Below are positions 3,481 to 17,756 of a stretch of 29,506 nucleotides of DNA, in pieces. A model generated the notes under the pieces. That model saw only the letters and a list, made by a program, of their open reading frames with translations, searched no databases and was not told the DNA's origin. A program made the translations under genes and the position numbers. This stretch comes from a virus. How positions within the stretch are numbered: position 1 is the first letter of the stretch; the number at the start of each line of letters is the position of its first letter. The stretch is from the IMG/VR virus record IMGVR_UViG_3300034119_000552, positions 1 through 29,506 of that record. The stretch is one strand, 5' to 3'.

Positions 3481-3639
3481 TTACTGAGTGAAGAAATCCC
3501 AAGTGACCTTCATCACTGTTCCGCACACAAGCAACGAGCCGACAAAGAACGTAACGGAGATTGCAAAAAACCCAGTTACAACAAGCGACCCAAGCGCGCA
3601 CATCGCCCATTCTTCGACTTTGCTCATGTGGTTTCTCAT
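3481..3639 (-). CDS. Small membrane protein (52 aa)
   Basis: The product has one long, or two short, transmembrane segments at about residues 13-44 (ALGSLVVTGFFAISVTFFVG and LLVCGTV), with a short polar N-terminus and the aromatic tail WDFFTQ. The chosen ATG at 3639 forms an ATGA overlap with the stop of the upstream nuclease and lies 4 nt after GGAGG. A second in-frame ATG at 3627 would have a poor spacing. No family is recognised. It could be a membrane-acting accessory protein such as an exclusion factor. Confidence 0.72.
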   Translation of the reverse strand: MRNHMSKVEEWAMCALGSLVVTGFFAISVTFFVGSLLVCGTVMKVTWDFFTQ

Positions 3640-4466
3640 GCCGCCTCCTTGAGTGTGCTGAACGCCGGCTGCCTCGGGTCGTAGCCTTTGACGTGGCGCC
3701 ACAAGATGCAGGCGGCTTTGAATGCTTCCCAATGCGGGACAAGGCTGTCGTGCTTGTAGGGTTCGACGCGGCCGACTTCCGTGGTGCTGATGTAGACGTT
3801 GTAGCCGTGGATGGTGTGCAGTTCGTCTTCGCCCCACTTGGCCACGGCATAGGCGGCGAGCTGCATGCCCTGCGTGTCGTATGGGCCGACCTTCTGCTTG
3901 GGCTTGGTCTTGCGCGTCTTGTAGTCGATGACCATGCGGGTGCCATTGGCGTCACGCGCCAGCACGTCGCAGCGGCCGGCGTAGCCGTATTCCAGATTGA
4001 CGAGCGTTGTCTCGATCTCGTCGTAGGTGATTTTGTTCTTTTGCTTCCAGTCCATGACGGGAGCCACATAGGCCCACATGTCATCGGGAACCGCGCTCGG
4101 GCCTTCCATGAGTAGCTTCTCCAAGGCGTCATGCACTTTGCTGCCGAGATCGGCGGCGGCTGCCACCGGGGCCTTGCTGGCGCCAATGACTCGCTCGCAG
4201 AAATACTCAATAGTCTCGTCGCCCTTGGGCGGGGTGTTGAAAGCGGCGATGGCAACTTGCGTGGCCTTCCAGTTGAGGAGGGCGGGCTTGTCGAGGATGC
4301 CGGTGTAGCCGGTGACGGATGGGAGAAGCAGGAGCTTCTTGGCGTCAGCCAGCGTGGTGTCTTTGAGTCCGCTGCCGTCTTTCTTGGGAAGCTGGTGGCA
4401 GGGGGTGCCGTCTGGCTTATACCAGTGGCCGCCGTCTACGGATTTAGATTCAGATAAAATTGCCAT
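3636..4466 (-). CDS. RecB/Cas4-family PD-(D/E)XK exonuclease
   Basis: This 276-residue protein carries the full RecB-type nuclease signature. GSKVHDALE has H112, GRCDVLA has D167, VIDYKT has D181 and K183, and GMQLAAYA has Q202 and Y206. These place it with phage exonucleases that resect double-stranded ends for recombination or degrade DNA. An SSB-like gene lies immediately upstream, which fits a recombination/replication module, although no annealase is recognisable. There is no strong Shine-Dalgarno before its ATG. No cysteine cluster for an iron-sulfur centre is visible, so it is closer to plain RecB-like exonucleases than to canonical Cas4. Confidence 0.88.
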   Translation of the reverse strand: MAILSESKSVDGGHWYKPDGTPCHQLPKKDGSGLKDTTLADAKKLLLLPSVTGYTGILDKPALLNWKATQVAIAAFNTPPKGDETIEYFCERVIGASKAPVAAAADLGSKVHDALEKLLMEGPSAVPDDMWAYVAPVMDWKQKNKITYDEIETTLVNLEYGYAGRCDVLARDANGTRMVIDYKTRKTKPKQKVGPYDTQGMQLAAYAVAKWGEDELHTIHGYNVYISTTEVGRVEPYKHDSLVPHWEAFKAACILWRHVKGYDPRQPAFSTLKEAA

Positions 4467-5246: not shown

Positions 5247-5576
5247 TTACTGGTCTAGGAAAGAAGAGTTGCGGATGAGCAAGAGGTCATCCTCGGCATC
5301 ACGGATCGCCACCCACCGGCAGTCGTTGCGCCGGTGGTAGACCGTGGGGATCTGCTTCTCGCCGGCATCGCGGCGCGCTTGATCGAGCCAGTCGTAGAGG
5401 TTGCCCTTCTCGCAGCGCTTCACCTCTATGTGAAAGCGGTGAAGGCTTTCGCAGATCACATCGGGGCTTTCATTTCCGCCGCTAAATTGCTGCCCACGGC
5501 GGGCGACAAACCCGCGAGCAGTGAGGAACTTGGCAAATTCCAGTTCTCCGCGTTTTCCTTTGGCTCGGCTATTCAT
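5247..5576 (-). CDS. Hjc-like PD-(D/E)XK endonuclease (putative Holliday-junction resolvase)
   Basis: I start this gene at the ATG at 5576 (109 residues), because the longer frame would run deep into the helicase gene while this start overlaps it by eight bases. The N-terminus NSRAKGKRGELEFAKFLTAR is typical of archaeal-type Holliday-junction resolvases and related phage nucleases. E11, D39 in ESPDV, and E51-V-K53 form the expected catalytic set. It could resolve branched DNA before packaging. A general restriction-like nuclease is the alternative. It is co-transcribed with the helicase upstream and the SSB-like gene downstream. Confidence 0.82.
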   Translation of the reverse strand: MNSRAKGKRGELEFAKFLTARGFVARRGQQFSGGNESPDVICESLHRFHIEVKRCEKGNLYDWLDQARRDAGEKQIPTVYHRRNDCRWVAIRDAEDDLLLIRNSSFLDQ

Positions 5577-6972
5577 TGAGGACGGCGTTAATGGTGTGAA
5601 GGTCGGGTTGGTTGCCGTAAGGCTGCGGGGCCTCATCGGTCATGCGGCTGATGTTGGCGTGGTCAAAGCGGGTGCAGCTCGGCGACCAAACCATGGGGAA
5701 GCTGCGGGTCTGCCCTTCCCGGTGCTTGGCGACGATCATTTCGGCATCTTGGTTGTCCGTGGAGTCGGCCCCGCTGCCGGCCTCGTAGTAGCCCTCACGA
5801 TGCAGAAGGACGATAATGTCGGCGTCCTGCTCCAAAGATCCCGAGTCCTTCAAGTCACTCATCTTGGGGCGTGTGTCCGTGCGCTCATCGGCCTTGCGCC
5901 CTACTTGGGCTGCGGCAATAACCGGCACACCCAGCTCCAGCGCCATCGCTTTAAGGCCCCGGCTGACGGCGCTGACCCGCTCGTAGCTGGTGTTGTAGCC
6001 CTTGGCTTCCAGAAGCTGCGCGTAATCGACAAAGATGGCCTTGATGCCGTGACGGCGGATGTCCCGGCGCGCACGGCCACGGATGTCCATGATGCTGGCG
6101 CCCCGCGCTTCGTCGATGTAGAGGGGCTGATCCCCGAGTTTGAAGAAGTGGTTGCCGAGGCTCTTGGCCTCGACTTGGCTGATGGCGCCAAGACGCACGC
6201 GGGCGCTGTTGGCCCTCGCTCTGGCCATGACGATGCGGTTGGCGATGCTTTTCTTGGGCATCTCTAGGGAGAACAGCAGCACAGGGGTTCCGGCTGCGGC
6301 CATGCGGTCGCACATATTGATGAGAAGCGCACTCTTGCCCATGCCGGGGCGACCGCCGACCACCACCAACTGGCCCTCACGCAAGCCGCCCGTCAGCACG
6401 TCAAGATCGCGGAAGCCCGTGGCCAACCCGCGCGGCTTACCCTTGTTGGCAATCGCCGCCTCGATCTCCGCTGCGGCCTCGTCCACGACGGTGCCGACAT
6501 GCACGCTGCCCTGACTCGGGCCGTCCAAGCTGATGGACAAAATTCTCTCGCCGGCTTCGGCCACCACTTCGCTGACGTTCTGCGCAATGTCGCGGCCAGC
6601 AGCGGCCATACGCACACCGGCCTCAACCATGCGGCGGCGGGCGACATGCTCGCGCAGGATACCAACGTAGTAGGAAAGATCGCGTGGACCCGCCATGCCG
6701 TATATCTCGGTGAGCGCACCAGCGCCGCCGACACCGTCCAATTTTTCAATGGAAGAAAGATGCTGCGTGACCGAGATAAGGTCGGGTTGTCCGCCCTCGG
6801 CACGGATGGCCTTGATCGCCGAAAGAATCGTGACGTGCGCCGGGGTGAAGAAATGCTCTGCCGTCAATTCGTTCCACTCGTCGATCAATTCGCCGTAGCA
6901 AATCAGACCGCCAAGAACGCATTGCTCGGCTGCCGTATCGTGGGGCATGGCTTGTTGCTTTTTCATGGTCAT
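5569..6972 (-). CDS. dnaB: DnaB-like replicative helicase
   Basis: This 467-residue protein has the two-domain layout of DnaB. The N-terminal domain (about 8-115) contains AAEQCVLGGLI. The RecA-like C-terminal ATPase has Walker A GGRPGMGKS at 206-214, Walker B IFVDYAQLL at 313-321, and the conserved block SDLKDSGSLEQDADIIVLLHR at 372-392. AKHREGQT near the end is the usual arginine-finger region. It unwinds the phage replication fork. Its ATG overlaps the stop of a 34-aa membrane peptide (ATGA), and a good promoter candidate lies about 110 bases upstream. No phage polymerase is visible, so host polymerase is probably used. Confidence 0.96.
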   Translation of the reverse strand: MTMKKQQAMPHDTAAEQCVLGGLICYGELIDEWNELTAEHFFTPAHVTILSAIKAIRAEGGQPDLISVTQHLSSIEKLDGVGGAGALTEIYGMAGPRDLSYYVGILREHVARRRMVEAGVRMAAAGRDIAQNVSEVVAEAGERILSISLDGPSQGSVHVGTVVDEAAAEIEAAIANKGKPRGLATGFRDLDVLTGGLREGQLVVVGGRPGMGKSALLINMCDRMAAAGTPVLLFSLEMPKKSIANRIVMARARANSARVRLGAISQVEAKSLGNHFFKLGDQPLYIDEARGASIMDIRGRARRDIRRHGIKAIFVDYAQLLEAKGYNTSYERVSAVSRGLKAMALELGVPVIAAAQVGRKADERTDTRPKMSDLKDSGSLEQDADIIVLLHREGYYEAGSGADSTDNQDAEMIVAKHREGQTRSFPMVWSPSCTRFDHANISRMTDEAPQPYGNQPDLHTINAVLNE

Positions 6973-9626: not shown

Positions 9627-10394
9627 TTAGCTTTTAGTGAAAAATTTTTCGTCGTCGGTTGAATCGGGGTATGATGGTCTAGAAGAACGGCGAACCCCCT
9701 CCACCCCTCCATCGGTAGGGGGTGGCGGCGGTAAAAACCGACCCTCTACCGGCTCAAAAACTGGCACACCGGCAGCATCTACAGAGACGGAACAATCAGA
9801 AACAAGCGGTTGTTCACCGCTTGCACCCTGTAGGGTGGGCGATTGTGTGCGCTTGTGTTCTTTTGGGGCGCGCGTCTGGCCGGTGATACCCATTGCCGGG
9901 GCCGACTCCACAATGACACCCTCAACAACTTCGCCCCACTCATCCGCACTAGGCGCGGACACTATCTCGACGCGGCTAGTTGCACCACCGGCAAGCAACT
10001 CTGATTTCTCGGTCGCTATCGCTGCCAAGACTGACAGCGCTTGATCCTTCATCTCCGGCAGCCGGTCAACAAGCTCGGCGGTTCCAAGGGCCGCAAGCGT
10101 CTTCCAGTTCTTCGCGGTAACGTCTCGGGCCGCTTCAAGTAGTTCGGGGCGGTTGCGCACTAGGGCCGTGATCGTGTGATAACTAACTCCGAGTTCCTTG
10201 GCAATCCGAGTGACCGGCACACCGGCAAGGTGCAAGGCGGCGATCTTCTGGGCGGTATCCTCTGGGACATTCATCCCGGTAAAGCCTGCGTTGGTGCGCA
10301 CGGGGGCGTGGGAATTGGCGGCCGGTTGCGCGTCCGCCTTGGCCGCTTGCACCTTGGCAACCTTGCGCGGCCGTCCTGTGGCGGTCTTTGGCAT
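9627..10394 (-). CDS. Helix-turn-helix DNA-binding protein with disordered C-terminus
   Basis: I start at the ATG at 10394, which shares a base with the upstream stop (TAATG). The 255-residue product has a basic N-terminus (MPKTATGRPRKVAKVQAAKA). A HTH follows at about 50-80 (KIAALHLAGVPVTRIAKELG, then YHTITALVRN), then a helical region ending KSELLAGGATSRVEI, and a long proline-rich disordered tail with PPPPPT. Proteins of this layout in phages are annotated either as HTH regulators or as small terminase subunits. The position far from terL and beside an excisionase-like gene favours a regulator. Confidence 0.72.
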   Translation of the reverse strand: MPKTATGRPRKVAKVQAAKADAQPAANSHAPVRTNAGFTGMNVPEDTAQKIAALHLAGVPVTRIAKELGVSYHTITALVRNRPELLEAARDVTAKNWKTLAALGTAELVDRLPEMKDQALSVLAAIATEKSELLAGGATSRVEIVSAPSADEWGEVVEGVIVESAPAMGITGQTRAPKEHKRTQSPTLQGASGEQPLVSDCSVSVDAAGVPVFEPVEGRFLPPPPPTDGGVEGVRRSSRPSYPDSTDDEKFFTKS

Positions 10395-10597
10395 TAGGCG
10401 GCTTGGCGATTGTTCGCGCCGGGGACGGGTTGCAAGTTGGCATTGTGGAACCGCGCAAGTTCCGCCGTCGAAACGTAGGTGGTGCGCAACGTAGGCCGAG
10501 AGACGCGAATCTTGCCAGCGTTCACCCATCGAACAAACGTAGTCCGGCCGATGCCGAGACGTTCGCAAACTTCTTTCGGGCGTAGGTATTCAATCAC
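10394..10597 (-). CDS. Excisionase/MerR-type helix-turn-helix protein
   Basis: The 67-residue form starting at GTG 10597 is preferred because the promoter candidate predicts a transcript start near 10601, downstream of the ATG at 10624. It would then be nearly leaderless. The sequence IEYLRPKEVCERLGIGRTTF, then VRWVNAGKIRVSRPTLRTTY and VSTAELARFH, is a compact winged HTH of the AlpA/Xis type. It could be the excisionase partner of the integrase or the regulator of the divergent promoters. It is unusual for an excisionase to be 5.6 kb from, and on the opposite strand to, the integrase gene. Confidence 0.78.
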   Translation of the reverse strand: MIEYLRPKEVCERLGIGRTTFVRWVNAGKIRVSRPTLRTTYVSTAELARFHNANLQPVPGANNRQAA

Positions 10598-10600
10598 GAG

Positions 10601-10642
10601 GCCGCACGTTGTAACACAACACATGGCAAGCTGTCAACAGTC
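10601..10642 (-). promoter_or_regulatory. Candidate main early promoter of the minus-strand operon
   Basis: On the minus strand TTGACA (10637-10632) is followed after 18 bases by TACAAC (10613-10608). The imperfect palindrome CTGTTGACAG covers the -35 box. The block GACTGTTGACA is the same as in the helicase promoter. The predicted start lies only about four bases from the GTG of the first gene, suggesting a leaderless or very short leader transcript. Confidence 0.6.
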
Positions 10643-10722
10643 AATCTTGGGCAATATGGGCACAAGACCCACCGCGAAATAATTTGCCCCGTGTGCTGGT
10701 GTGTGTTCTCGTTTCGGGTGTT
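10643..10722. promoter_or_regulatory. Divergent control region between the two early operons
   Basis: These bases separate the minus-strand operon from the first plus-strand gene. I see AT-rich stretches (CAATATGG, AAATAATTTG) that could hold the plus-strand promoter, and a GT-rich leader before the ATG at 10723, but no convincing pair of boxes. An operator is likely here because the palindrome over the minus-strand -35 adjoins it. Confidence 0.4.
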
Positions 10723-11049
10723 ATGAAGAAACCACCGCCAAGGGTGCGCACCCGTGACGCTTTCACCGTCACCGTGAACACCCGCACAACAAAAGAAACA
10801 CAACGCAAGGCACAAGCCGCCGCCCGTGATCTTGGGGTTGTCCCTGCCGATATTTACCGCTGGGCGTTCGGTTGGTGGCTTGAATGTTACGAGGCAGCCG
10901 GGGGGCGAAAGCTCTCCGACCTTGAAGAACGCGCCGCCTTGGAGAGTATAAAAGGAGTATCAACCCGGCTCCATGAGACGGCCGCCGCTCACTATACGGC
11001 ACACGCACCCACCGCGACCCTCAGCAAATCCCGCCGGGGCGCGGCTTAA
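10723..11049 (+). CDS. Putative small DNA-binding regulator (108 aa)
   Basis: I start at the ATG at 10723, which begins a basic N-terminus MKKPPPRVRTRDAFTVTVNT. A strand-helix pattern follows: TVTVNTRTTKETQRKAQAAA, then DLGVVPADIYRWAFGWWLEC. This resembles a ribbon-helix-helix or similar minimal DNA-binding fold, but no firm family match is claimed. It is the first gene of the plus-strand operon and faces an HTH gene, as a phage control gene would. It has only a weak GGGTG as ribosome-binding site. Confidence 0.65.
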   Translation: MKKPPPRVRTRDAFTVTVNTRTTKETQRKAQAAARDLGVVPADIYRWAFGWWLECYEAAGGRKLSDLEERAALESIKGVSTRLHETAAAHYTAHAPTATLSKSRRGAA

Positions 11050-11178
11050 TGTTGCCGAAAAACGATTCAAACGGGCGTATTATTTTCGTAAAATTTACAG
11101 AGTAAAACGAAAAAGATTGAACCACGTTGATCTTTTTTCTTTGACAGCAAGCACACACAAGCACACACTGCACACGTT
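11050..11178 (+). promoter_or_regulatory. Intergenic region with a TTGACA box, CA-rich leader and a shared 12-bp repeat
   Basis: The region is AT-rich in its centre. It holds TTTACAGAGTAA (11094-11105), exactly repeated at 15969-15980, and extends to AGAGTAAAAC (11100-11109), also found inverted near the attachment site. A perfect TTGACA lies at 11141-11146, followed by CA repeats and no good -10, so the promoter call is tentative. The downstream gene has no Shine-Dalgarno. Confidence 0.45.
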
Positions 11179-11391
11179 ATGAGACACACACCGACAAAAG
11201 GGCGCGGGGATTCTGCCGCGCGCACAATCGACCTTACCCCTAGCTGGCAAGCGGCCGCGCGCGTTTGCATAATGGTGTTGCGCAATCCTCACGCAAGCGC
11301 AGAGGCGACCAATTACGCCGAGCGCGAAATCATGCGGCTGGCAAAGCATGTCGATGATATGCAGTCCAAAAACAAAGCGAAGACCGCCTAA
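11179..11391 (+). CDS. Conserved hypothetical protein (70 aa)
   Basis: The product begins MRHTPTKGRGDSAARTIDLT and has a helical core DLTPSWQAAARVCIMVLRNP, then EATNYAEREIMRLAKHVDDM. The pattern DLTPxWxAAxxxxxxVLxNP followed by an A-rich helix recurs in small phage and bacterial hypothetical proteins I recall; no function is known. The leader is CA-rich and lacks a GGAG, unlike most later genes of this operon. Confidence 0.75.
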   Translation: MRHTPTKGRGDSAARTIDLTPSWQAAARVCIMVLRNPHASAEATNYAEREIMRLAKHVDDMQSKNKAKTA

Positions 11392-11392
11392 C

Positions 11393-11476
11393 ATGAACCA
11401 CCTTCTCACCCTCACCGGCGAGATCCTCGCCATCCTTCTCATCTTTGCCTTGGGCGCGTTGCTCTTGGCACTGTAA
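11393..11476 (+). CDS. Very small membrane peptide (27 aa)
   Basis: The frame starts one base after the upstream stop and encodes one hydrophobic helix of about 20 residues (LTGEILAILLIFALGALLLA) with a polar start. Its size makes the call uncertain, but the position and strong hydrophobicity resemble the other membrane microproteins of this phage (6969-7073 and 2575-2730). Confidence 0.42.
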   Translation: MNHLLTLTGEILAILLIFALGALLLAL

Positions 11477-11502
11477 GCACACAAACACAAACAAACACAC
11501 AC

Positions 11503-11518
11503 AAGGAGACACACAATG
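11503..11518 (+). promoter_or_regulatory. Representative of a recurring ribosome-binding cassette
   Basis: AAGGAGACACACAATG here is one of seven near-identical start leaders. The others end at the ATGs at 11724, 12173, 13343, 13671, 14058 and 15036. The constant part is GGAG(A/G)CACACA with a spacing of about 6-9 bases from GGAG to ATG. A longer CA-rich run precedes this copy. Confidence 0.8.
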
Positions 11519-11704
11519 AAGCTACAAGAAGCAATCGAAACGGCCGCGCGCGCATTTGCGCAGCGTGGAGAATATCAACCGTCACATTGTGACGTGCGTT
11601 GCACCATCAATGACCTGATCGACGGGAACACCAGCTATCACCAAGACCGCGCCTTTCACAAGGTCCGCGCGATCCTCGCCGGTGCGGAAATCTGCAACCA
11701 ATAA
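11516..11704 (+). CDS. Hypothetical protein (62 aa)
   Basis: This short protein begins MKLQEAIETAARAFAQRGEY and includes CDVRCTINDLIDGNTSYHQD and a C-terminal helix. Two cysteines four residues apart could bind metal, but no family is recognised. It has the recurring AAGGAGACACACA leader immediately before its ATG. The codon use and GC-rich third positions fit the surrounding genes. Confidence 0.72.
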   Translation: MKLQEAIETAARAFAQRGEYQPSHCDVRCTINDLIDGNTSYHQDRAFHKVRAILAGAEICNQ

Positions 11705-11723
11705 CCCCAAAGGAGACACACAA

Positions 11724-12158
11724 ATGAGAATGACCAAAAGACAACGCGAGGCCCGATTCTTTGAGATGATGGGCGAGGTAGGATTCACTGCGGGCGAAAC
11801 GTGCGCACTGCTAAAGGCTGAACGCACCTTGCACCGTTGGGCGGAAATGGAATGCGGCACGGGTGATGACCGCATGAGTATTAGCGTCGAGCGCGACGAG
11901 CAGACCGGCAAACCGTTTCGCCGGGTGCAATACATGGCGGGCGGCAAATGGCAGGACCGCAAAACTCCGTGCCGAGACATGGAAAGCGCAGCACTGCGCA
12001 GGATCGGCGGCATCTTCGGCGGCAAGCCGGGACTGTCCTTCTATCATCAAGGCGACCCGCGCGGGTGCGCGTTGTATGTCCTGCGGGCCGGTGATGTTCC
12101 GGCGGGGGAAGACGTGAACGCATACTATTCGCGCGGCATCCCGGTTTGCGTGGACTAA
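11724..12158 (+). CDS. Conserved hypothetical of the YYHQGDPRGCALYVL family (144 aa)
   Basis: I start at the ATG at 11724, which follows the recurring AAAGGAGACACACA leader; earlier in-frame starts lie inside the previous gene. The core EFx-type helix is followed by LHRWAEMECG, then IGGIFGGKPGLSFYHQGDPR and GCALYVLRAGDVPAGEDVNA, YYSRGI. I recall this as a very common family in phages and phage-like elements of bacteria with no known role. The GDPRGCALY block suggests a ligand-binding or structural core. Confidence 0.85.
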   Translation: MRMTKRQREARFFEMMGEVGFTAGETCALLKAERTLHRWAEMECGTGDDRMSISVERDEQTGKPFRRVQYMAGGKWQDRKTPCRDMESAALRRIGGIFGGKPGLSFYHQGDPRGCALYVLRAGDVPAGEDVNAYYSRGIPVCVD

Positions 12159-12172
12159 CGGAGGCACACACA

Positions 12173-12478
12173 ATGAACCAACACACACAACACACTCCCG
12201 GCCCTTGGATCGTCAACGATCTCGGGCAGATCACCGACCGCAGCGGGCGCATTATTGTTGTCACGGTAAATGCTCACAACATCCCGAATCCGGCTTACCC
12301 AAAGGGCAGCTTCCATTACCTCGTCGATGATGATGGAGGCGAAGCAAACGCGCGCCTAATCGCGTCCGCTCCTGCTTTGCTGGCCGCCCTTGAAACGATA
12401 GCGGCCGGGAACACCGATCCCGAGTGCATGGTAGAGATTGCGCGCGAAGCAATCGCACAAATGGAGGGAGCACAATGA
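12173..12478 (+). CDS. GPW-family hypothetical protein, paralogue 1 (101 aa)
   Basis: The protein begins NQHTQHTPGPWIVND and ends with EANARLIASAPALLAALETI. This HTPGPW...NARLIAxAPxLLxAL pattern is a widespread family in phage accessory regions. Two further members lie downstream in this operon (13343-13645 and 13671-14036). The function is unknown. The start ATG follows GGAGGCACACACA, and the stop overlaps the next gene by ATGA. A distinctive aromatic/proline N-terminus and an alanine-rich C-terminal helix are the conserved parts. Confidence 0.85.
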   Translation: MNQHTQHTPGPWIVNDLGQITDRSGRIIVVTVNAHNIPNPAYPKGSFHYLVDDDGGEANARLIASAPALLAALETIAAGNTDPECMVEIAREAIAQMEGAQ

Positions 12479-12720
12479 CAACCGCACCCAAACTACCCCG
12501 CAAACAGCAACGCGAAAACGCGGCGAGGCGCAAACAGGCGCGCAAAGCGCTGGACGCATACGCCGGGATGATCGGCGCGGTGATAGGTCTTGAGGATGAC
12601 GAAACACTGCTCTGCGACATGCTCGCGGATTGCATGCACCTTATGGGGCGCGAATCCGTAGAGGGCCGCGTCTATTGGGCTGCCGAACACTACGAAGCGG
12701 AAAGGAGGGGAGAGCAATGA
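12475..12720 (+). CDS. Hypothetical helical protein (81 aa)
   Basis: The start ATG at 12475 forms an ATGA overlap with the previous stop. The product is basic at the N-terminus (PKLPRKQQRENAARRKQARK) and ends in an acidic helical domain LLCDMLADCMHLMGRESVEG, then VYWAAEHYEAERRGEQ. The LLxDxLADxMH...A..HYEAE pattern is one I recall from small phage proteins of unknown function. Two cysteines are close (CDMLADC). Confidence 0.75.
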   Translation: MTTAPKLPRKQQRENAARRKQARKALDAYAGMIGAVIGLEDDETLLCDMLADCMHLMGRESVEGRVYWAAEHYEAERRGEQ

Positions 12721-12899
12721 CAACCCACGAAATCCTTCAAACGGCCGCAGACTTCAACGCCCGAGCGGATTACGATATATCGGCCGCGCTGGAGCTATCC
12801 GCCGCAGTCATCCGGCGCGCGCACATTGTCCAAGTGGCGAGGACAGAGGCCAAAGACCCGCAGTTAATGCTGCCAATGGAAGGGGAACCGCTGCCATGA
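12717..12899 (+). CDS. Hypothetical protein (60 aa)
   Basis: This ORF is chosen from its ATG at 12717, which overlaps the previous stop (ATGA), rather than the longer frame from 12630. It encodes MTTHEILQTAADFNARADYD followed by ISAALELSAAVIRRAHIVQV, ending PMEGEPLP. It is helical and slightly acidic. No family is recognised. Both ends join neighbours by four-base overlaps. Confidence 0.65.
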   Translation: MTTHEILQTAADFNARADYDISAALELSAAVIRRAHIVQVARTEAKDPQLMLPMEGEPLP

Positions 12900-13099
12900 G
12901 CACAACAACCTTCTGGCAGCATCAAGCCGAGGCGCACCTTGTCGCGCACGGAGCACAACGGCGCGCGGCATTGGGGCGCAGGATTTGCGCGGCAGCATTA
13001 CGCGAGGCAAGGAGGGGCGGCCGGGAGCACTACCGGCAACTGCGTTTTGCTTTGCTCTATATCTGCGGCCGATTCCCGGCAAAGGAGGCCAACCAATGA
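12896..13099 (+). CDS. Hypothetical basic helical protein (67 aa)
   Basis: The product begins MSTTTFWQHQAEAHLVAHGA and is dominated by Arg and Ala (QRRAALGRRICAAALREARR), with an aromatic tail ALLYICGRFP. The frame is favoured over three overlapping frames because its ATG and stop both form ATGA overlaps with adjoining genes. No family is recognised. Confidence 0.55.
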   Translation: MSTTTFWQHQAEAHLVAHGAQRRAALGRRICAAALREARRGGREHYRQLRFALLYICGRFPAKEANQ

Positions 13100-13242
13100 C
13101 CACCGGAGACCACTACCACGAAAGGCCCATGGTCAACTGGTGCGCCTTCTGGCAAGTGATGGCCGCCAAACGCACCGAAACCGGCCCGCCATGGTGGGAA
13201 GTGATGGCCGCGAGGATCAGACAATGGCTAACGCGCGCATGA
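13096..13242 (+). CDS. Small protein containing two VMAA repeats (48 aa)
   Basis: The ATG at 13096 overlaps the previous stop and follows GGAGGCC. The product contains two short units, FWQVMAAKRTE and WWEVMAARIRQ, each encoded by the 11-bp sequence GTGATGGCCGC. The repeat may therefore be a DNA element that happens to be translated here. No family is recognised, and the protein could be a by-product of repeat expansion. Confidence 0.5.
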   Translation: MTTGDHYHERPMVNWCAFWQVMAAKRTETGPPWWEVMAARIRQWLTRA

Positions 13243-13346
13243 GTTCCGACACTGGTTCCGGCAATACCGGGGCCAGCACGGAGAGCATAACGCAATCCCG
13301 GCCAGTGATGGCCGCCAAACACATACAAAGGAGACACACACAATGA
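13239..13346 (+). CDS. Doubtful small ORF between two genes (35 aa)
   Basis: The ORF begins with an ATGA overlap and ends with another (the TGA overlaps the next ATG at 13343). The product is low-complexity (SSDTGSGNTGASTE), and its last residues are encoded by the recurring ribosome-binding cassette of the next gene, so it may be untranslated spacer. It contains a third VMAA-coding copy of GTGATGGCCGC. Confidence 0.3.
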   Translation: MSSDTGSGNTGASTESITQSRPVMAAKHIQRRHTQ

Positions 13347-13645
13347 CACTAGAACAAACGATTGGGCCTTGGCATTCGTCCAAGGCAGGAAACGACACGC
13401 AAGGGCTTATCTATGGGGACGATGGCAAGAATGTCGCCGTTTCCTATGAGGCAAAAGACGCACCGCTTATCGCTGCCGCACCCGATCTCTATTGGGCCGC
13501 GCGCTGCGCACTGGCAGACCTAGAGGGCATCATGCCCGAGTTTGAACCAAGCGGAGACCGCGAACATCCGGCATGGCAGACCATCAAGGAATTGCGTTCA
13601 GTAATCGCCAAAGTAACCCCGGATGAGGTGGTGGTGGTCGCTTAA
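13343..13645 (+). CDS. GPW-family hypothetical protein, paralogue 2 (100 aa)
   Basis: This protein shares GPWHSSK near its N-terminus and APLIAAAPDLYWAARCALAD with the family seen at 12173-12478. The internal part (DTQGLIYGDDGKNVAVSYEA) is a beta-rich stretch. The C-terminus is a long helix plus VTPDEVVVVA. The start follows AAAGGAGACACACACA. It is the middle of three paralogues, suggesting duplication within the operon. The function is unknown. Confidence 0.82.
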   Translation: MTLEQTIGPWHSSKAGNDTQGLIYGDDGKNVAVSYEAKDAPLIAAAPDLYWAARCALADLEGIMPEFEPSGDREHPAWQTIKELRSVIAKVTPDEVVVVA

Positions 13646-13670
13646 CCTAAACAAACAACAGGAGACACAC

Positions 13671-14036
13671 ATGACAACGAAAGACAATGAAACGCCGGCA
13701 CGCGTTGCCGGACCTTGGAAATACCACCTTGGACGCGGAGCCAACCCACGGTTTCACGTTCAGACCATGGGTGGCTATCAAATCGCCAGCACGCCGGAAT
13801 TGTCCAAGCATGCACAGGCAAAAGAAGAAAACGCATCCCGAGAGGCAAACGCGCGACTGATAGCCGCCGCGCCGGAAATGCTCGACGCACTGCGTCTGGC
13901 TCTGACTTGTCTCGATGCCGCTGCTGATGGACGGCTTGAAGATGTGAAAGACGAGATCGGCGGCACGGCCAACATCGTTGACGAGGCTATCACCCGTGCG
14001 ACTCAATCATGCGGCGAGCCAGTGATGGCCGCTTGA
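13671..14036 (+). CDS. GPW-family hypothetical protein, paralogue 3 (121 aa)
   Basis: I start at the ATG at 13671, after CAGGAGACACAC, because the longer frame overlaps paralogue 2. It contains RVAGPWKYHLG near the N-terminus and EANARLIAAAPEMLDALRLA in the C-terminal half, as in the other two paralogues. The last residues (EPVMAA) are encoded by the GTGATGGCCGC repeat just before the stop. It is the largest of the three. The function is unknown. Confidence 0.82.
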   Translation: MTTKDNETPARVAGPWKYHLGRGANPRFHVQTMGGYQIASTPELSKHAQAKEENASREANARLIAAAPEMLDALRLALTCLDAAADGRLEDVKDEIGGTANIVDEAITRATQSCGEPVMAA

Positions 14037-14057
14037 AGCACGGAAAGGAGACACACA

Positions 14058-14327
14058 ATGAGCATCATTCAACAACTCTCGCAAATGGAGACGAGAGCAA
14101 ACAAATACAACCACCAGAGGACCGTGCGAATTTACACGGACAAAACAAAACCGCGCCCGCACGAACCCCATTTTGAGATTCGCGTCGATTGGGACACTCC
14201 CGACAGGGAACATGCGGTTGCCTTCCTCAAGTTCCTCGCCGAGCACGGCATCCATGCAGTGCTTCACCGGCAGAGCATGGACGGCAACATCTACAGCCAC
14301 GACCTTCTCAAAAAGGAGGCAGCATGA
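14058..14327 (+). CDS. Hypothetical protein (89 aa)
   Basis: The product begins MSIIQQLSQMETRANKYNHQ and has a ferredoxin-like strand-helix-strand pattern (HFEIRVDWDTPDREHAVAFL, then FLAEHGIHAVLHRQ). No specific family is recognised. It has the full AAAGGAGACACACA leader and ends with an ATGA overlap into the next gene, whose start also has a GGAGG. Confidence 0.72.
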   Translation: MSIIQQLSQMETRANKYNHQRTVRIYTDKTKPRPHEPHFEIRVDWDTPDREHAVAFLKFLAEHGIHAVLHRQSMDGNIYSHDLLKKEAA

Positions 14328-14935
14328 AACAAACGACAATCCGCGTCCGTCTTGAGGAAGACATTGCCGGAATGTGCGCTTGGCCAGCACCGGCCAAGAT
14401 CACGCGCAACCGCATCGAATACGCACCGTCCAAGTGGGACCGGCGCGCGTGGCGGGTGATGGCCGGCGAGGCTGCCGAATGGGGCAAGCCTATTGAGGCC
14501 CGCCCGAAAGAGGGAGGATGTCCTTCAGCCGAGTGGATGCACGAAGTGTCCGAGCGTTTGGTGCGCGTCTGCAAAAAGCGCAAATTCAAGACGAAGGTGC
14601 GCGTTGCCAAGACGTTTCCGAACGGTGATGCCGAGGAGGTTGCGGTCACGGTCTATTGGGACCGGCCCGTCACGCCACCGAGCGCGGATACTCCCGGCCG
14701 GTGGAAGCTAGTCGAGCACCGCAAGGGCAAGCGGCGCAAGCTAGGGGAGGTCGAGGCTACGCTGGAATGCTGCGGCGACGAACTGTATTGCCATCTGCCG
14801 GACGGCGATGTTCCGCCGGGATATGACGTATTCCCTGACTACGGCAGTGTGTTGGTGCTGCCCGAGTCGCAAGCAACGGAGGATCTGTGGTGGGAGTTCA
14901 CCTTCCGCCCCGGCAAAAGACGCAACGCCGCTTGA
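14324..14935 (+). CDS. Hypothetical protein (203 aa), largest of the plus-strand operon
   Basis: I start at the ATG at 14324, which gives an ATGA overlap and has AAGGAGGCAGC before it. The protein begins MKQTTIRVRLEEDIAGMCAW, is basic in the middle (VRVCKKRKFKTKVRVAKTFP), and is beta-rich at its C-terminus (DLWWEFTFRPGKRRN). A motif GDVPPGYDVFPDYGS in the C-terminal third recalls the GDVPAGEDV stretch of the 144-aa protein. That likeness is short and may be chance. The function is unknown. Confidence 0.72.
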   Translation: MKQTTIRVRLEEDIAGMCAWPAPAKITRNRIEYAPSKWDRRAWRVMAGEAAEWGKPIEARPKEGGCPSAEWMHEVSERLVRVCKKRKFKTKVRVAKTFPNGDAEEVAVTVYWDRPVTPPSADTPGRWKLVEHRKGKRRKLGEVEATLECCGDELYCHLPDGDVPPGYDVFPDYGSVLVLPESQATEDLWWEFTFRPGKRRNAA

Positions 14936-15035
14936 CGCCCGACACCGGCCTTTGTCCAATGGGCAGAGGCCGGAACGGACGGCAAACATGCCAACCCGGT
15001 GATGGCCGCACCATCAATAGAAACGAAGGAGACAC

Positions 15036-15449
15036 ATGAAAAAGACAGCAAAACCTAAAGCCAAGAAACAGCAACCGGAACAACCGTGGTGCGGAGAACT
15101 AGACCCGCTCGGTTACGTCAGGGAATACGCTCCTACGCTCATAGAGCAACGGGCGAGCCTGTTGCCGTTTGAGGGCGCCATTGACAGCGAACAGGCGGGA
15201 CCGATCCCGACAGCCAAGGACTACGACCCAAACGAAGAACCACACTTCACGGTCGAAGTCAAAGACCCGACAGACAGTAAGTGCTCATACTTCTTCAAAG
15301 TGACGAAGCATGGAGTGACCTACGACTTCGGCCAGTGGCCGGGAGACGGCACGCTGGATATATGGGACGCCGATATGCCCTACAGCATGGAAGCATTGTG
15401 GGAGTTTATGCGTCAGGCCCCACGGCCGGCGCATGTGTTCATCAAGTGA
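15036..15449 (+). CDS. Hypothetical protein (137 aa)
   Basis: The N-terminal 20 residues are basic (MKKTAKPKAKKQQPEQPWC), and the remainder is acidic and aromatic (FTVEVKDPTDSKCSYFFKVT, then DMPYSMEALWEFMRQAPRP). No family is recognised. The start follows GAAGGAGACAC. The stop TGA lies inside the motif GTGATGGCCGCC and overlaps the next gene's ATG as TGATG. Confidence 0.7.
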   Translation: MKKTAKPKAKKQQPEQPWCGELDPLGYVREYAPTLIEQRASLLPFEGAIDSEQAGPIPTAKDYDPNEEPHFTVEVKDPTDSKCSYFFKVTKHGVTYDFGQWPGDGTLDIWDADMPYSMEALWEFMRQAPRPAHVFIK

Positions 15450-15832
15450 TGGCCGCCATGACTGCAAAACACTACCTAGCCGAGCGCGGGATCAACGCCA
15501 AGGCCGCCCGATTTGCGGGCGCCTTCATCGCCGTGCGCGAGGAACCGGAGTCAACTGAGCTTGTCCACAAGGATGGCAAGAAAGTTGTGTTCACCAAGTG
15601 GCAGCCGCCCAAGGGCGCCAAAATGTGGACGCTCTGGACGACCGGCGGACTTGGAACCGAGCCATACACGGACGTTTGGACAGTCGCCCGTGGATGGGGA
15701 TTCGCGTTCTCATGCTGCGAATGGCCAAGCCTTGCAGAGCATTGGACCGGAGGCTTCAAGACCGAGGCCGCTGCTCTCAAGGAGGCCGCGCGGATCGTTA
15801 AGAAAGAGTCAGACGAACAGAACGCCGCGTAA
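15449..15832 (+). CDS. Hypothetical protein (127 aa), last gene of the plus-strand operon
   Basis: Two starts are possible. One is ATG 15449, overlapping the previous stop; the other is ATG 15458 three codons later. The product MTAKHYLAERGINAKAARFA continues with an aromatic middle KMWTLWTTGGLGTEPYTDVW, a CC-containing segment and a lysine-rich helical end. No family is recognised. It is followed by the non-coding attachment region. Confidence 0.68.
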   Translation: MAAMTAKHYLAERGINAKAARFAGAFIAVREEPESTELVHKDGKKVVFTKWQPPKGAKMWTLWTTGGLGTEPYTDVWTVARGWGFAFSCCEWPSLAEHWTGGFKTEAAALKEAARIVKKESDEQNAA

Positions 15833-15968
15833 ATACTACTTCGCCGCTCACCGCACCGGGGCCGGGGCCAACCGCTCTTGTCCCGGTGACGGGGTAGTGA
15901 TGGCCGCCCGATCCACCGAAAGCACACACCTTGACACCAAGCGTAACACGACCGCACACAAGCGCATT
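15833..15968 (+). other. Non-coding spacer before the attachment region
   Basis: No gene is supported here. The stretch holds the repeat copy at 15897 and a TTGACA at 15931-15936, and is rich in CAC motifs (GCACACACC, GCACACAAGCG). The TTGACA has no good -10 box and might instead be part of an integrase or regulator binding site (it contains TGACACC). Confidence 0.5.
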
Positions 15969-15980
15969 TTTACAGAGTAA
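15969..15980 (+). repeat. TTTACAGAGTAA, second copy
   Basis: This 12-bp sequence is identical to bases 11094-11105. Together the copies bracket the plus-strand small-gene operon from just after its first gene to its end. The 10-bp AGAGTAAAAC of the first copy is also found inverted at about 16057-16066, on the other side of the tRNA fragment. Confidence 0.6.
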
Positions 15981-15986
15981 TTCTGT

Positions 15987-16009
15987 GGGCCATGGAAAAC
16001 GCACGGCCC
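15987..16009. terminator. Hairpin beside the tRNA fragment, possible weak terminator
   Basis: GGGCC (15987-15991) and GGCCC (16005-16009) can pair, with two further pairs after one mismatch and a loop around GAAAACG. Only three T residues follow on the plus strand, so termination would be weak. It could instead be part of the integrase binding region, since it abuts the tRNA-derived sequence. Confidence 0.35.
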
Positions 16010-16010
16010 T

Positions 16011-16048
16011 TTAGAAATCCGCTGCTCTATCCCCTGAGCTACGGGCGC
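16011..16048 (-). other. attP: attP core: 5' half of tRNA-Arg(UCU)
   Basis: Read on the minus strand these 38 bases form the first half of a tRNA. They comprise a 7-base acceptor strand GCGCCCG, TA, a D-arm GCTC-AGGGGATA-GAGC, an A, the anticodon-stem strand GCGGA and the loop TTTCTAA with anticodon TCT. The similarity stops at the end of the loop, because the next bases do not pair with GCGGA. The integrase gene follows within 130 bases. Attachment sites that end in the anticodon loop are well known for tyrosine integrases. A phage-borne 5' half is less common than a 3' half. Confidence 0.82.
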
Positions 16049-16071
16049 GGTTAAGGTTTTACTCTATAATC

Positions 16072-16147
16072 TGACCCAAAAGAATCCAGTTTGACCCACC
16101 TTGTGCCAACATCCCGTGACACAGATACGAGCACAGTCTTGACACAG
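16072..16147 (+). repeat. Four TGACMCA repeats, candidate integrase arm sites
   Basis: TGACCCA occurs at 16072 and 16092, and TGACACAG at 16117 and 16140. All are in the same orientation, spaced 20, 25 and 23 bp apart, which is roughly two helical turns. They lie between the tRNA-derived core and the integrase gene, where arm-type sites of a tyrosine integrase are expected. Confidence 0.55.
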
Positions 16148-16176
16148 TCGCGCAATGAAGTGACCTTGGAGTTGTT

Positions 16177-17352
16177 ATGAACATTGAAACTTTTCGCATA
16201 GAAGTTCCCAAGTATGGGTTGAGGGGCGCGGTATATCAACGCTTGGGGCGCCTTTGGCTGCGCTTCACGCATGAGAAGAAGATCCGCCGCGTATCCCTAA
16301 AGACCAATGATCCCAAGGTCGCCAAGGCCAAGGCCATATCTTATCTAAACATTCTCGGCCAAGAGGGAGCCGCGCGACTGACCGAGCTGACCCACGGCCG
16401 CGACGAATCTCCGAGCATCGGCAAGGTCGTCGAGCATTACCGCTTGCGGAGCGACTGCCCGAGCAAGGAGGAGAACATTCGTTGCCTGTTGCGGGTCATC
16501 GCCCGAGCCAAGGGCATCGCACCCTTCCGAGAGCATCCCATGATTAAGGGGCGGGCCATTGCCATGACGGACGCCGAAGTCGCCAAGGTGATGGCCGTCC
16601 GCTCCACCGAATTGAACGATAAGCTGGTGCGACAATACCTGACCAACTGCGGAACCAGCGCCTACACGGCCGGCAGCACACTCGCCAGCGCCAAGAGTGT
16701 GTTCGCAGACAGCAACGACTGGATCGACTTCAAGCTGCCGGACATCGCCTCCTTCCGCGCCGCCAGCAAACAGGCCAAGCAGAAATACAACCCGACCAGC
16801 TTCCAACACATCCCCAAGGACAAGCTGGATGCCATGGAGCGCGACAGCCGGGGCATGGCAGAGATCCGCCGCGCCTTTATCTGCTGTCGCTACATGGGCA
16901 TGACGCCCAAGGAAGTCAGTTATGCCCGCAAGTCGTGGATCGAGGATCGCCCCGAAGGCAAGACCATGTGCATCCGCGAGCGCCCCGATGAGGAGTTCAC
17001 CCTAAAGACAGGGGGATGCCGCGAGCGCGACATTACCTTGGCGTCATGGATGGCCGACTATCTGCTGGCTGCCGAAGACTACATGATCCCGCTCGGCACA
17101 GAGTTCCTTCGCTACAACTTCATGCTTCGCAATTTCAACACTTGGCTGCGGCAATACATCCCGAACCGCAAGGGAGCCGCCTACGAGCTACGCAAGCAAG
17201 CCGGCAGCGATTGGCTGGAGGCGACGGGGTCACTCGTCCAAGTGCAATATCTTTTGGGGCACTCGTCCTATGTAACAACGCAACGCTGGTATGCCACATG
17301 GCAGCGCGCCGTAGTCGTGCCAGAAAAATTCCAACAAGAACCAACAATATGA
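16177..17352 (+). CDS. int: Tyrosine recombinase (integrase), atypical catalytic set
   Basis: This 391-residue protein has an N-terminal DNA-binding part, a SAM-like core region at about 80-185 and a C-terminal catalytic domain. The recognisable residues are K277 in FTLKTGG, R339 in YELRKQAGSDWL, H362 in YLLGHSSYVTT and the nucleophile Y372 in RWYATW. Two usual residues are missing. The first arginine would be in GMTPKE (241-246), where T243 takes its place, and the first histidine of HxLR is Y336. It should insert the phage at tRNA-Arg. The ATG lies only 35 bases past the last arm repeat. Its stop overlaps the lipoprotein ATG. Confidence 0.9.
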   Translation: MNIETFRIEVPKYGLRGAVYQRLGRLWLRFTHEKKIRRVSLKTNDPKVAKAKAISYLNILGQEGAARLTELTHGRDESPSIGKVVEHYRLRSDCPSKEENIRCLLRVIARAKGIAPFREHPMIKGRAIAMTDAEVAKVMAVRSTELNDKLVRQYLTNCGTSAYTAGSTLASAKSVFADSNDWIDFKLPDIASFRAASKQAKQKYNPTSFQHIPKDKLDAMERDSRGMAEIRRAFICCRYMGMTPKEVSYARKSWIEDRPEGKTMCIRERPDEEFTLKTGGCRERDITLASWMADYLLAAEDYMIPLGTEFLRYNFMLRNFNTWLRQYIPNRKGAAYELRKQAGSDWLEATGSLVQVQYLLGHSSYVTTQRWYATWQRAVVVPEKFQQEPTI

Positions 17353-17756
17353 AACTCCTAACCCTAACACTCGCCGCCGCCATGGTGATGGCCGCCACGG
17401 GCTGCGAAACGAAACAGGCAAAGGCCGCAAGGATGGACGCCCAAGGAATGGTCCGCACGCAAGACGGCAAGTGGGTCCCGAAGGGCACACGCTTCTTCGG
17501 GTCCGGTCATCCTTGGGTTATGGAGAACGGCAGTCCCGCGCCCGCAGTGTTTGACCCGACCGTCTTCAATCAAGCCATGGCGCAGAACATGGGCGGCGGG
17601 GCACCGGCGCCGGTCATCGTCACGGGACCGGGATCACCACCGATCACCACGGCAAGCCAAGTTGGCGGCACAACGGTTATCTCCACCATCGGCAGCCGCG
17701 CACCGATTGGCGCGCCTGTTTACAGTCCGCCGGCATACGGCTACTATGGCTACTGA
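17349..17756 (+). CDS. Small putative lipoprotein encoded with the integrase
   Basis: The ATG at 17349 overlaps the integrase stop as ATGA. Residues 1-19 form a lipoprotein signal (MKLLTLTLAAAMVMAATGC) with C19 as the acyl site. Its lipobox is only approximate. The mature part is basic, then rich in Gly, Pro and Ala and low in complexity (PAPVIVTGPGSPPIT), ending in YGYYGY. No family is recognised. Being co-transcribed with the integrase in a lysogen, it may alter the host envelope, for example as a superinfection-exclusion protein. Confidence 0.78.
   Translation: MKLLTLTLAAAMVMAATGCETKQAKAARMDAQGMVRTQDGKWVPKGTRFFGSGHPWVMENGSPAPAVFDPTVFNQAMAQNMGGGAPAPVIVTGPGSPPITTASQVGGTTVISTIGSRAPIGAPVYSPPAYGYYGY

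Follow-up and report, generated by a model that had tools for sequence, protein, structure and literature searches.

The 29,506-nucleotide window discussed here, the whole of IMG/VR virus record IMGVR_UViG_3300034119_000552 (positions 1 to 29,506), contains two operons that concern us. The leftward operon encodes a small Xis-like helix-turn-helix (HTH) protein, an O-like initiator, a DnaB helicase, a RusA-like resolvase and a PD-(D/E)XK exonuclease; the rightward operon (10684-17756) carries small uncharacterised genes, a candidate attP region, a tyrosine integrase and a small predicted lipoprotein. In the distal 4.3 kb of the rightward operon, and nowhere else in the window, stands an array of short repeats in one orientation. 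The repeats divide this part of the operon into stretches that we call cassettes.

The core of the repeat, the 11-mer GTGATGGCCGC, occurs eight times between 13156 and 17395, always on the plus strand; the other strand and the rest of the 29.5-kb record hold none. Chance would give 0.04 copies, and none of the shuffles came to eight. An earlier reading of the letters alone (the sequence-only reading) had reported this count, with these positions and this strand, and had put the number expected by chance far below one; in all of this it was right. Its 11-bp unit stands as the core, but the true unit is longer. Alignment of the copies gives a bipartite pattern of about 25 bp, R-GTGATGGCCGC-N5-CCA-N3-AA(A), whose second part keeps a fixed distance from the first: no copy in the window departs from AA at +22/+23, another A usually follows, and CA is common at +17/+18. 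Two further copies (copies 5 and 9 in Table 1), both altered in the last base of the 11-mer, are counted too, for the AA is intact in both and their scores match those of the others. A matrix built from the ten gives the intact copies 25-36 bits; the next site, the decayed copy of Table 1, scores 13.5, and the rest of the record reaches at most 9.2. The sequence 3' of the decayed copy resembles that found after intact copies in two related phages (L117 and L119). Other one-mismatch matches (11863, 18352, 19093, 20158 and 24262) are without the second half and were set aside as chance-like.

Table 1. Motif copies and other features of the window
Feature	Position	Strand	Remarks
Motif copy 1	13156..13181	+	in gene 13096-13242, VMAA frame; exact 11-mer with AA at +22/23
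Motif copy 2	13201..13226	+	in gene 13096-13242, VMAA frame
Motif copy 3	13305..13330	+	untranslated gap 5' of the ribosome-binding site of gene 13343
Decayed copy	13631..13656	+	GTGGTGGTCGC...AA, at the end of gene 13343-13645
Motif copy 4	14022..14047	+	encodes the C-terminal VMAA-stop of gene 13671-14036
Motif copy 5	14456..14481	+	GTGATGGCCGG, in gene 14324-14935; AA at +22/23 kept; matrix score 25.6
Motif copy 6	14999..15024	+	untranslated gap following a hairpin
Motif copy 7	15446..15471	+	overlaps the TGA stop of gene 15036-15449 and the ATG of the next gene
Motif copy 8	15897..15922	+	untranslated gap, ~117 bp 5' of the tRNA-like attP piece
Motif copy 9	16588..16613	+	GTGATGGCCGT, in the integrase gene (VMAVRSTE)
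Motif copy 10	17385..17410	+	leader/body joint of the predicted lipoprotein (VMAATGCE)
Candidate attP region	15931..16155	+	tRNA half near 16010-16050; TTGACACC-type repeats, distinct from the motif
Tyrosine integrase	16177..17352	+	phrog_1, E 1.2e-12
Small predicted lipoprotein	17349..17756	+	lipobox AATGC; conserved in motif phages
Xis-like HTH_17 protein	10394..10624	-	candidate reader of the motif
Small ribbon-helix-helix-like protein (by eye)	10723..11049	+	candidate reader of the motif; no library match
PD-(D/E)XK exonuclease	3636..4466	-	candidate recombination function; phrog_298, E 1e-24; PF12705
RusA-like Holliday junction resolvase	5247..5636	-	candidate recombination function; phrog_244, E 1.7e-17

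Placement of the copies relative to genes is divided. The sequence-only reading put five of its eight at gene ends or in short gaps before the next ribosome-binding site; of the ten, five (copies 3, 4, 6, 7 and 8) are placed at gene ends or in gaps, whereas the other five (1, 2, 5, 9 and 10) lie inside coding sequence. The reading frames it gave are correct; the full set is VMAA for copies 1, 2, 4 and 10, a TGATG stop/start for copy 7, and no translation of copies 3, 6 and 8. That chance, or a repeated VMAA peptide, accounts for the array deserves almost no credence: six of the ten copies do encode VMA(A/V/G), but the untranslated and stop-frame copies are identical to them as DNA, the chance expectation is that given above, and the motif is kept in about 20 phages.

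A second way to read the same placement, which we hold very doubtful, is as a translation element: the embedded TGATG or ATGGCC would couple stop and start at gene joints, as start-associated sequences (SAS) might. The stop/start overlap of copy 7 recurs in several relatives, and ATG GCC GCC is a possible gene start in several cassettes; but the distance from motif to next start varies from 0 to about 38 bp, some copies (copy 8, for example) have no gene start after them, five lie inside genes, and the AA at +22/+23 has no translational reason. The SAS of cluster K mycobacteriophages are 13-bp asymmetric sequences found 3-7 bp 5' of start codons, where they overlap the ribosome-binding site (PMC3203893). 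Like them, the motif keeps to one orientation, to non-structural genes and to a single cluster (PMC3203893); unlike them, it stands at no fixed few-bp distance before starts, and half of its copies are intragenic.

A pattern scan of IMG/VR retrieved about 20 related contigs, and 19 whole records were analysed together with the window. These 20 records hold 133 copies of the bipartite pattern, always on one strand per record, in a single block of 4-5 kb that ends at the integrase and lipoprotein genes; an operon of these uncultured temperate phages has up to about 12 copies, all in the same direction. The sequence-only reading had called for a count in relatives: the copies persist there, and the strand bias and confinement to one block, with no reverse-strand copy and none outside, hold in all 20 records. 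A search by integrase, independent of the motif, gave a matching picture: all 18 phages with an integrase 57-96% identical hold at least two copies of the first ten bases, and in most of them this 10-mer is the commonest of the locus. The 19 phages with integrases 34-41% identical have no sense-strand copy and no comparable repeat, and none of about 150 other viral loci and 118 bacterial loci with one match holds an array. As far as seen, therefore, the element belongs to one phage group. Pattern matches in genome contigs are single copies; no relative of the integrase was found among genome contigs or GenBank phages, and blastn found no match in phages. A genome-wide host signal such as Chi was rejected on the limitation of the motif to one block and one strand, and a sigma-54 or extracytoplasmic-function (ECF) promoter because, by eye, the consensus does not fit.

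How strongly the motif is held in place can be gauged at orthologous sites, located in the other phages by their flanks alone before substitutions were counted. The 11-mer core differs at 1.6% of positions, the AA at 0.0%, the spacer at 13.9% and the flanks at 15.6%, so that the core changes about 10-fold less than its surroundings; for copy 9, in the integrase gene, the corresponding values are 0.0%, 0.0%, 12.5% and 18.5%. Decay, where it occurs, is focused at positions 0, 3 and 8. Among 49 families of downstream sequence, 46 have AA at +22/+23 (about 95% with equal weighting), and positions 11-21 are only loosely constrained; in the lipoprotein gene some phages lack a codon (ATGCE versus AGCAQ), yet the distance to the AA is kept. 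Copying by recombination would hardly account for the second half, given that the spacer has not been homogenised; this points to selection on the nucleic acid. From these sequence comparisons, the best reading is that purifying selection preserves the motif as nucleic acid and not as peptide. The sequence-only reading had likewise proposed that DNA and not peptide is conserved; the identity of the untranslated copies and the contrast between core and flanks agree with it. A codon test within the integrase gene is weak alone: of 92 four- to six-fold codons, 15 do not vary in any case.

The motif is also a place where these genomes change partners. Whole genes and gene segments have been substituted at it without change of position, and the stretches between copies behave as exchangeable cassettes: one of them, cassette C, has six different preceding and four different following neighbours, and is 96% identical from motif to motif in two phages with diverged integrases (L106 and L111). 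The cleanest case is the sister pair L106 and L118 (G004 and G016), near-identical over 11 kb except for one cassette replacement. The two are identical for 5846 bp, up to the final base of an 11-mer; past this seam 787 bp in one face 149 bp in the other, after which identity resumes (99.98% over 5385 bp) from a hairpin before the next motif. Exchange within a gene is seen in the lipoprotein, where all four combinations of two leaders with two bodies occur (window, L115, L119 and L120), joined at the motif, a four-gamete pattern. More generally, shared segments have their right end 0 to +45 from a motif in 277 of 392 cases (shifted sites: 37) and their left end -3 to +5 from one in 53 of 390 (shifted sites: 8), counts that are not independent because the phages are related. 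Flanks are discordant across the motif in 78% of comparisons, versus about 5-20% at a distance of 200-300 bp. Exchange between phages at the motif may run through homology; what bears on this is the recent exchange that ends exactly at the 11-mer, and the four-gamete gene. The sequence-only reading had listed a recombination-boundary element among its alternatives; the seam, the lipoprotein gene and the segment ends now support it directly.

One might then suppose that the motif is nothing but a boundary sequence: a short homology without a reader, spread by repeated recombination at gene joints. Joints do coincide with the motif, the phage encodes an exonuclease and a RusA resolvase, and other linkers (ribosome-binding sites and hairpins) act alike. 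But the invariant AA lies beyond a freely changing spacer that contiguous copying would homogenise, and orthologous copies resist change; we regard this account as unlikely. Boundary sequences at mosaic joints have been proposed for lambdoid phages, with one case in cluster I mycobacteriophages, and most mosaic joints of other phages have no identifiable one (PMC3029335). They are the nearest match in respect of exchange: an identical short sequence stands where unrelated genes have been exchanged and where genome similarity ends. The difference is that a single motif, with a second half under selection, here recurs at most joints of an operon and also within genes, across about 20 phages.

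Another perspective locates the motif's function in exchange itself. A recombinase or nuclease of the phage, for which the neighbouring integrase is one candidate, would recognise the bipartite site in its fixed orientation and insert, excise or swap cassettes one gene at a time, in the manner of an integron. The integrase adjoins a one-orientation array of such cassettes, exchange occurs exactly at the motif even within genes, and cassette C is shared by phages with distant integrases. Against this, the order of shared cassettes is never in conflict across 122 pairs, and no array has two members of the same cassette family; conserved order without duplicates indicates replacement in place, not free shuffling, and integron-like shuffling was rejected on the conserved order. 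Mosaicism is as marked in the 5' half of the operon, which has no motif (9.1 versus 6.6 segment ends per aligned kb) and where many segments end at Shine-Dalgarno sequences, and the right end of the L106/L118 exchange is the hairpin, not the motif; the motif is therefore one among several short linkers used for exchange. The likeness to integrons thus stops at a tyrosine recombinase gene beside the array: order is fixed, with no sign of single insertion or excision into free positions; there is no common attC-like fold at cassette ends; and exchange does not always end at the site. A dedicated site of this kind we consider improbable, and equally improbable the phage-coded system it would imply, one that steers the substitution of genes and gene halves, each at its own place, among phages of a single clade. 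That genes are exchanged at the motif is not enough to explain its conservation.

The same integrase might read the motif as arm-type sites, repeats flanking the attP core that its N-terminal domain binds; this was rejected because attP has its own TTGACACC-type repeats, different in sequence, around the core, and motif copies reach 2.9 kb upstream of it. The candidate attP itself contains, on the minus strand, the apparent 5' half of a tRNA-Arg gene with these repeats on either side, and is kept in relatives. Integration there would part the motif array from the integrase gene.

We lean, with rather less than even confidence, towards a strand-specific bipartite cis element that binds a factor, resembles stoperators in layout and doubles as a recombination boundary. 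That is, a sequence-specific factor, coded by phage or host, would recognise every copy, either in the DNA or in the RNA as it is made from the rightward accessory and integrase operon; the bound factor would govern whether transcription proceeds from one cassette to the next, as happens at oriented stoperators and other sites of elongation control; and, since most cassette joints have the same sequence, the array as a by-product offers short homology for gene exchange, which the phage's own exonuclease and resolvase may carry out. The stoperators of cluster A mycobacteriophages (L5, Bxb1) are likewise many short asymmetric sites, oriented with transcription, often at joints and clade-specific in sequence (PMC6550527, PMC3029335). 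In the L5-type class one such site also serves as operator at the early promoter, and the sites are scattered over the genome (PMC6550527, PMC3029335), whereas the present motif keeps to one operon, is absent from the early promoter and from the lytic genes at large, lies half inside genes, is longer and bipartite, has an unrelated sequence, and comes with no recognised repressor.

Several observations weigh against this preferred explanation. The presumed promoter at 10.6-10.7 kb has no copy (a matrix scan of 10.4-11.5 kb on both strands found nothing above 6 bits), and neither, by the same matrix, has the leftward replication operon, which a prophage would need silenced; the structural operons are also free of it. 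Half of the copies lie inside genes. No repressor or other reader was recognised, and the transcriptional role is one that we infer. Moreover, the relatives were mostly found through an exact form of the motif, and conservation is to that extent somewhat inflated; the integrase-based set removes part of this bias. The stoperator comparison made by the sequence-only reading thus survives for orientation, asymmetry and joint layout, and fails for the promoter, the replication operon, the intragenic half and a cognate repressor.

The two obvious candidates for a reader, the Xis-like and the ribbon-helix-helix-like proteins, accompany the motif, and the phages that lack it yielded neither; their reading heads vary while the motif is constant, a further difficulty for the favoured explanation, and on this ground both were set aside. 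A host factor, or the integrase itself, could be the reader. The motif could also act on RNA, since its orientation is fixed. A more particular version of this idea makes it an mRNA processing or antitermination signal with upstream hairpins as partners. Besides the fixed orientation, strong hairpins directly 5' of several intergenic copies speak for it; but most copies have no such hairpin, no common fold emerges and no Rfam family matches, and we think it decidedly improbable. A common RNA fold was rejected in its own right, as only 9 of 41 upstream-sequence families have a strong 5' hairpin (below -28 kcal/mol). The hairpins, at 13253-13277, 14945-14973 and 15850-15890 in the window and at 6636-6665 in L106, have no clear U-tract; the one in L106/L118 is also the point at which their recent exchange ends.

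The mosaicism of phage genomes has been explained by illegitimate recombination or by short boundary sequences (PMC3029335). Here, in about 20 phages, one selected, strand-specific sequence marks most of the joints in an operon, and L106/L118 provide a natural before-and-after pair for mosaic exchange; with a recurrent selected motif and such a sister pair, both a role as boundary homology and the identity of the multi-copy element are directly testable. Should a repressor or elongation factor prove to read the motif, it would constitute an unrelated system with the stoperator layout.

Some features of the small genes in and before the array deserve mention. Gene 13096-13242 encodes a 48-aa Trp-rich protein with an internal duplication (WQVMAAK..E..PWWEVMAAR) and is present in nearly all motif phages with coverage; the first of its two motif copies is the one most often decayed. 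Three paralogues of phrog_1273, a family without assigned function, share the one operon (12173-12478, 13343-13645 and 13671-14036). Finally, C-termini in -AA are common among the small proteins of 10394-15832: RQAA in the Xis-like protein, RGAA at 11049, VMAA at 14036, KEAA at 14327, RNAA at 14935 and QNAA at 15832. These ends may reflect a seam of GCCGC plus stop, or an ssrA-like C-terminal degron.

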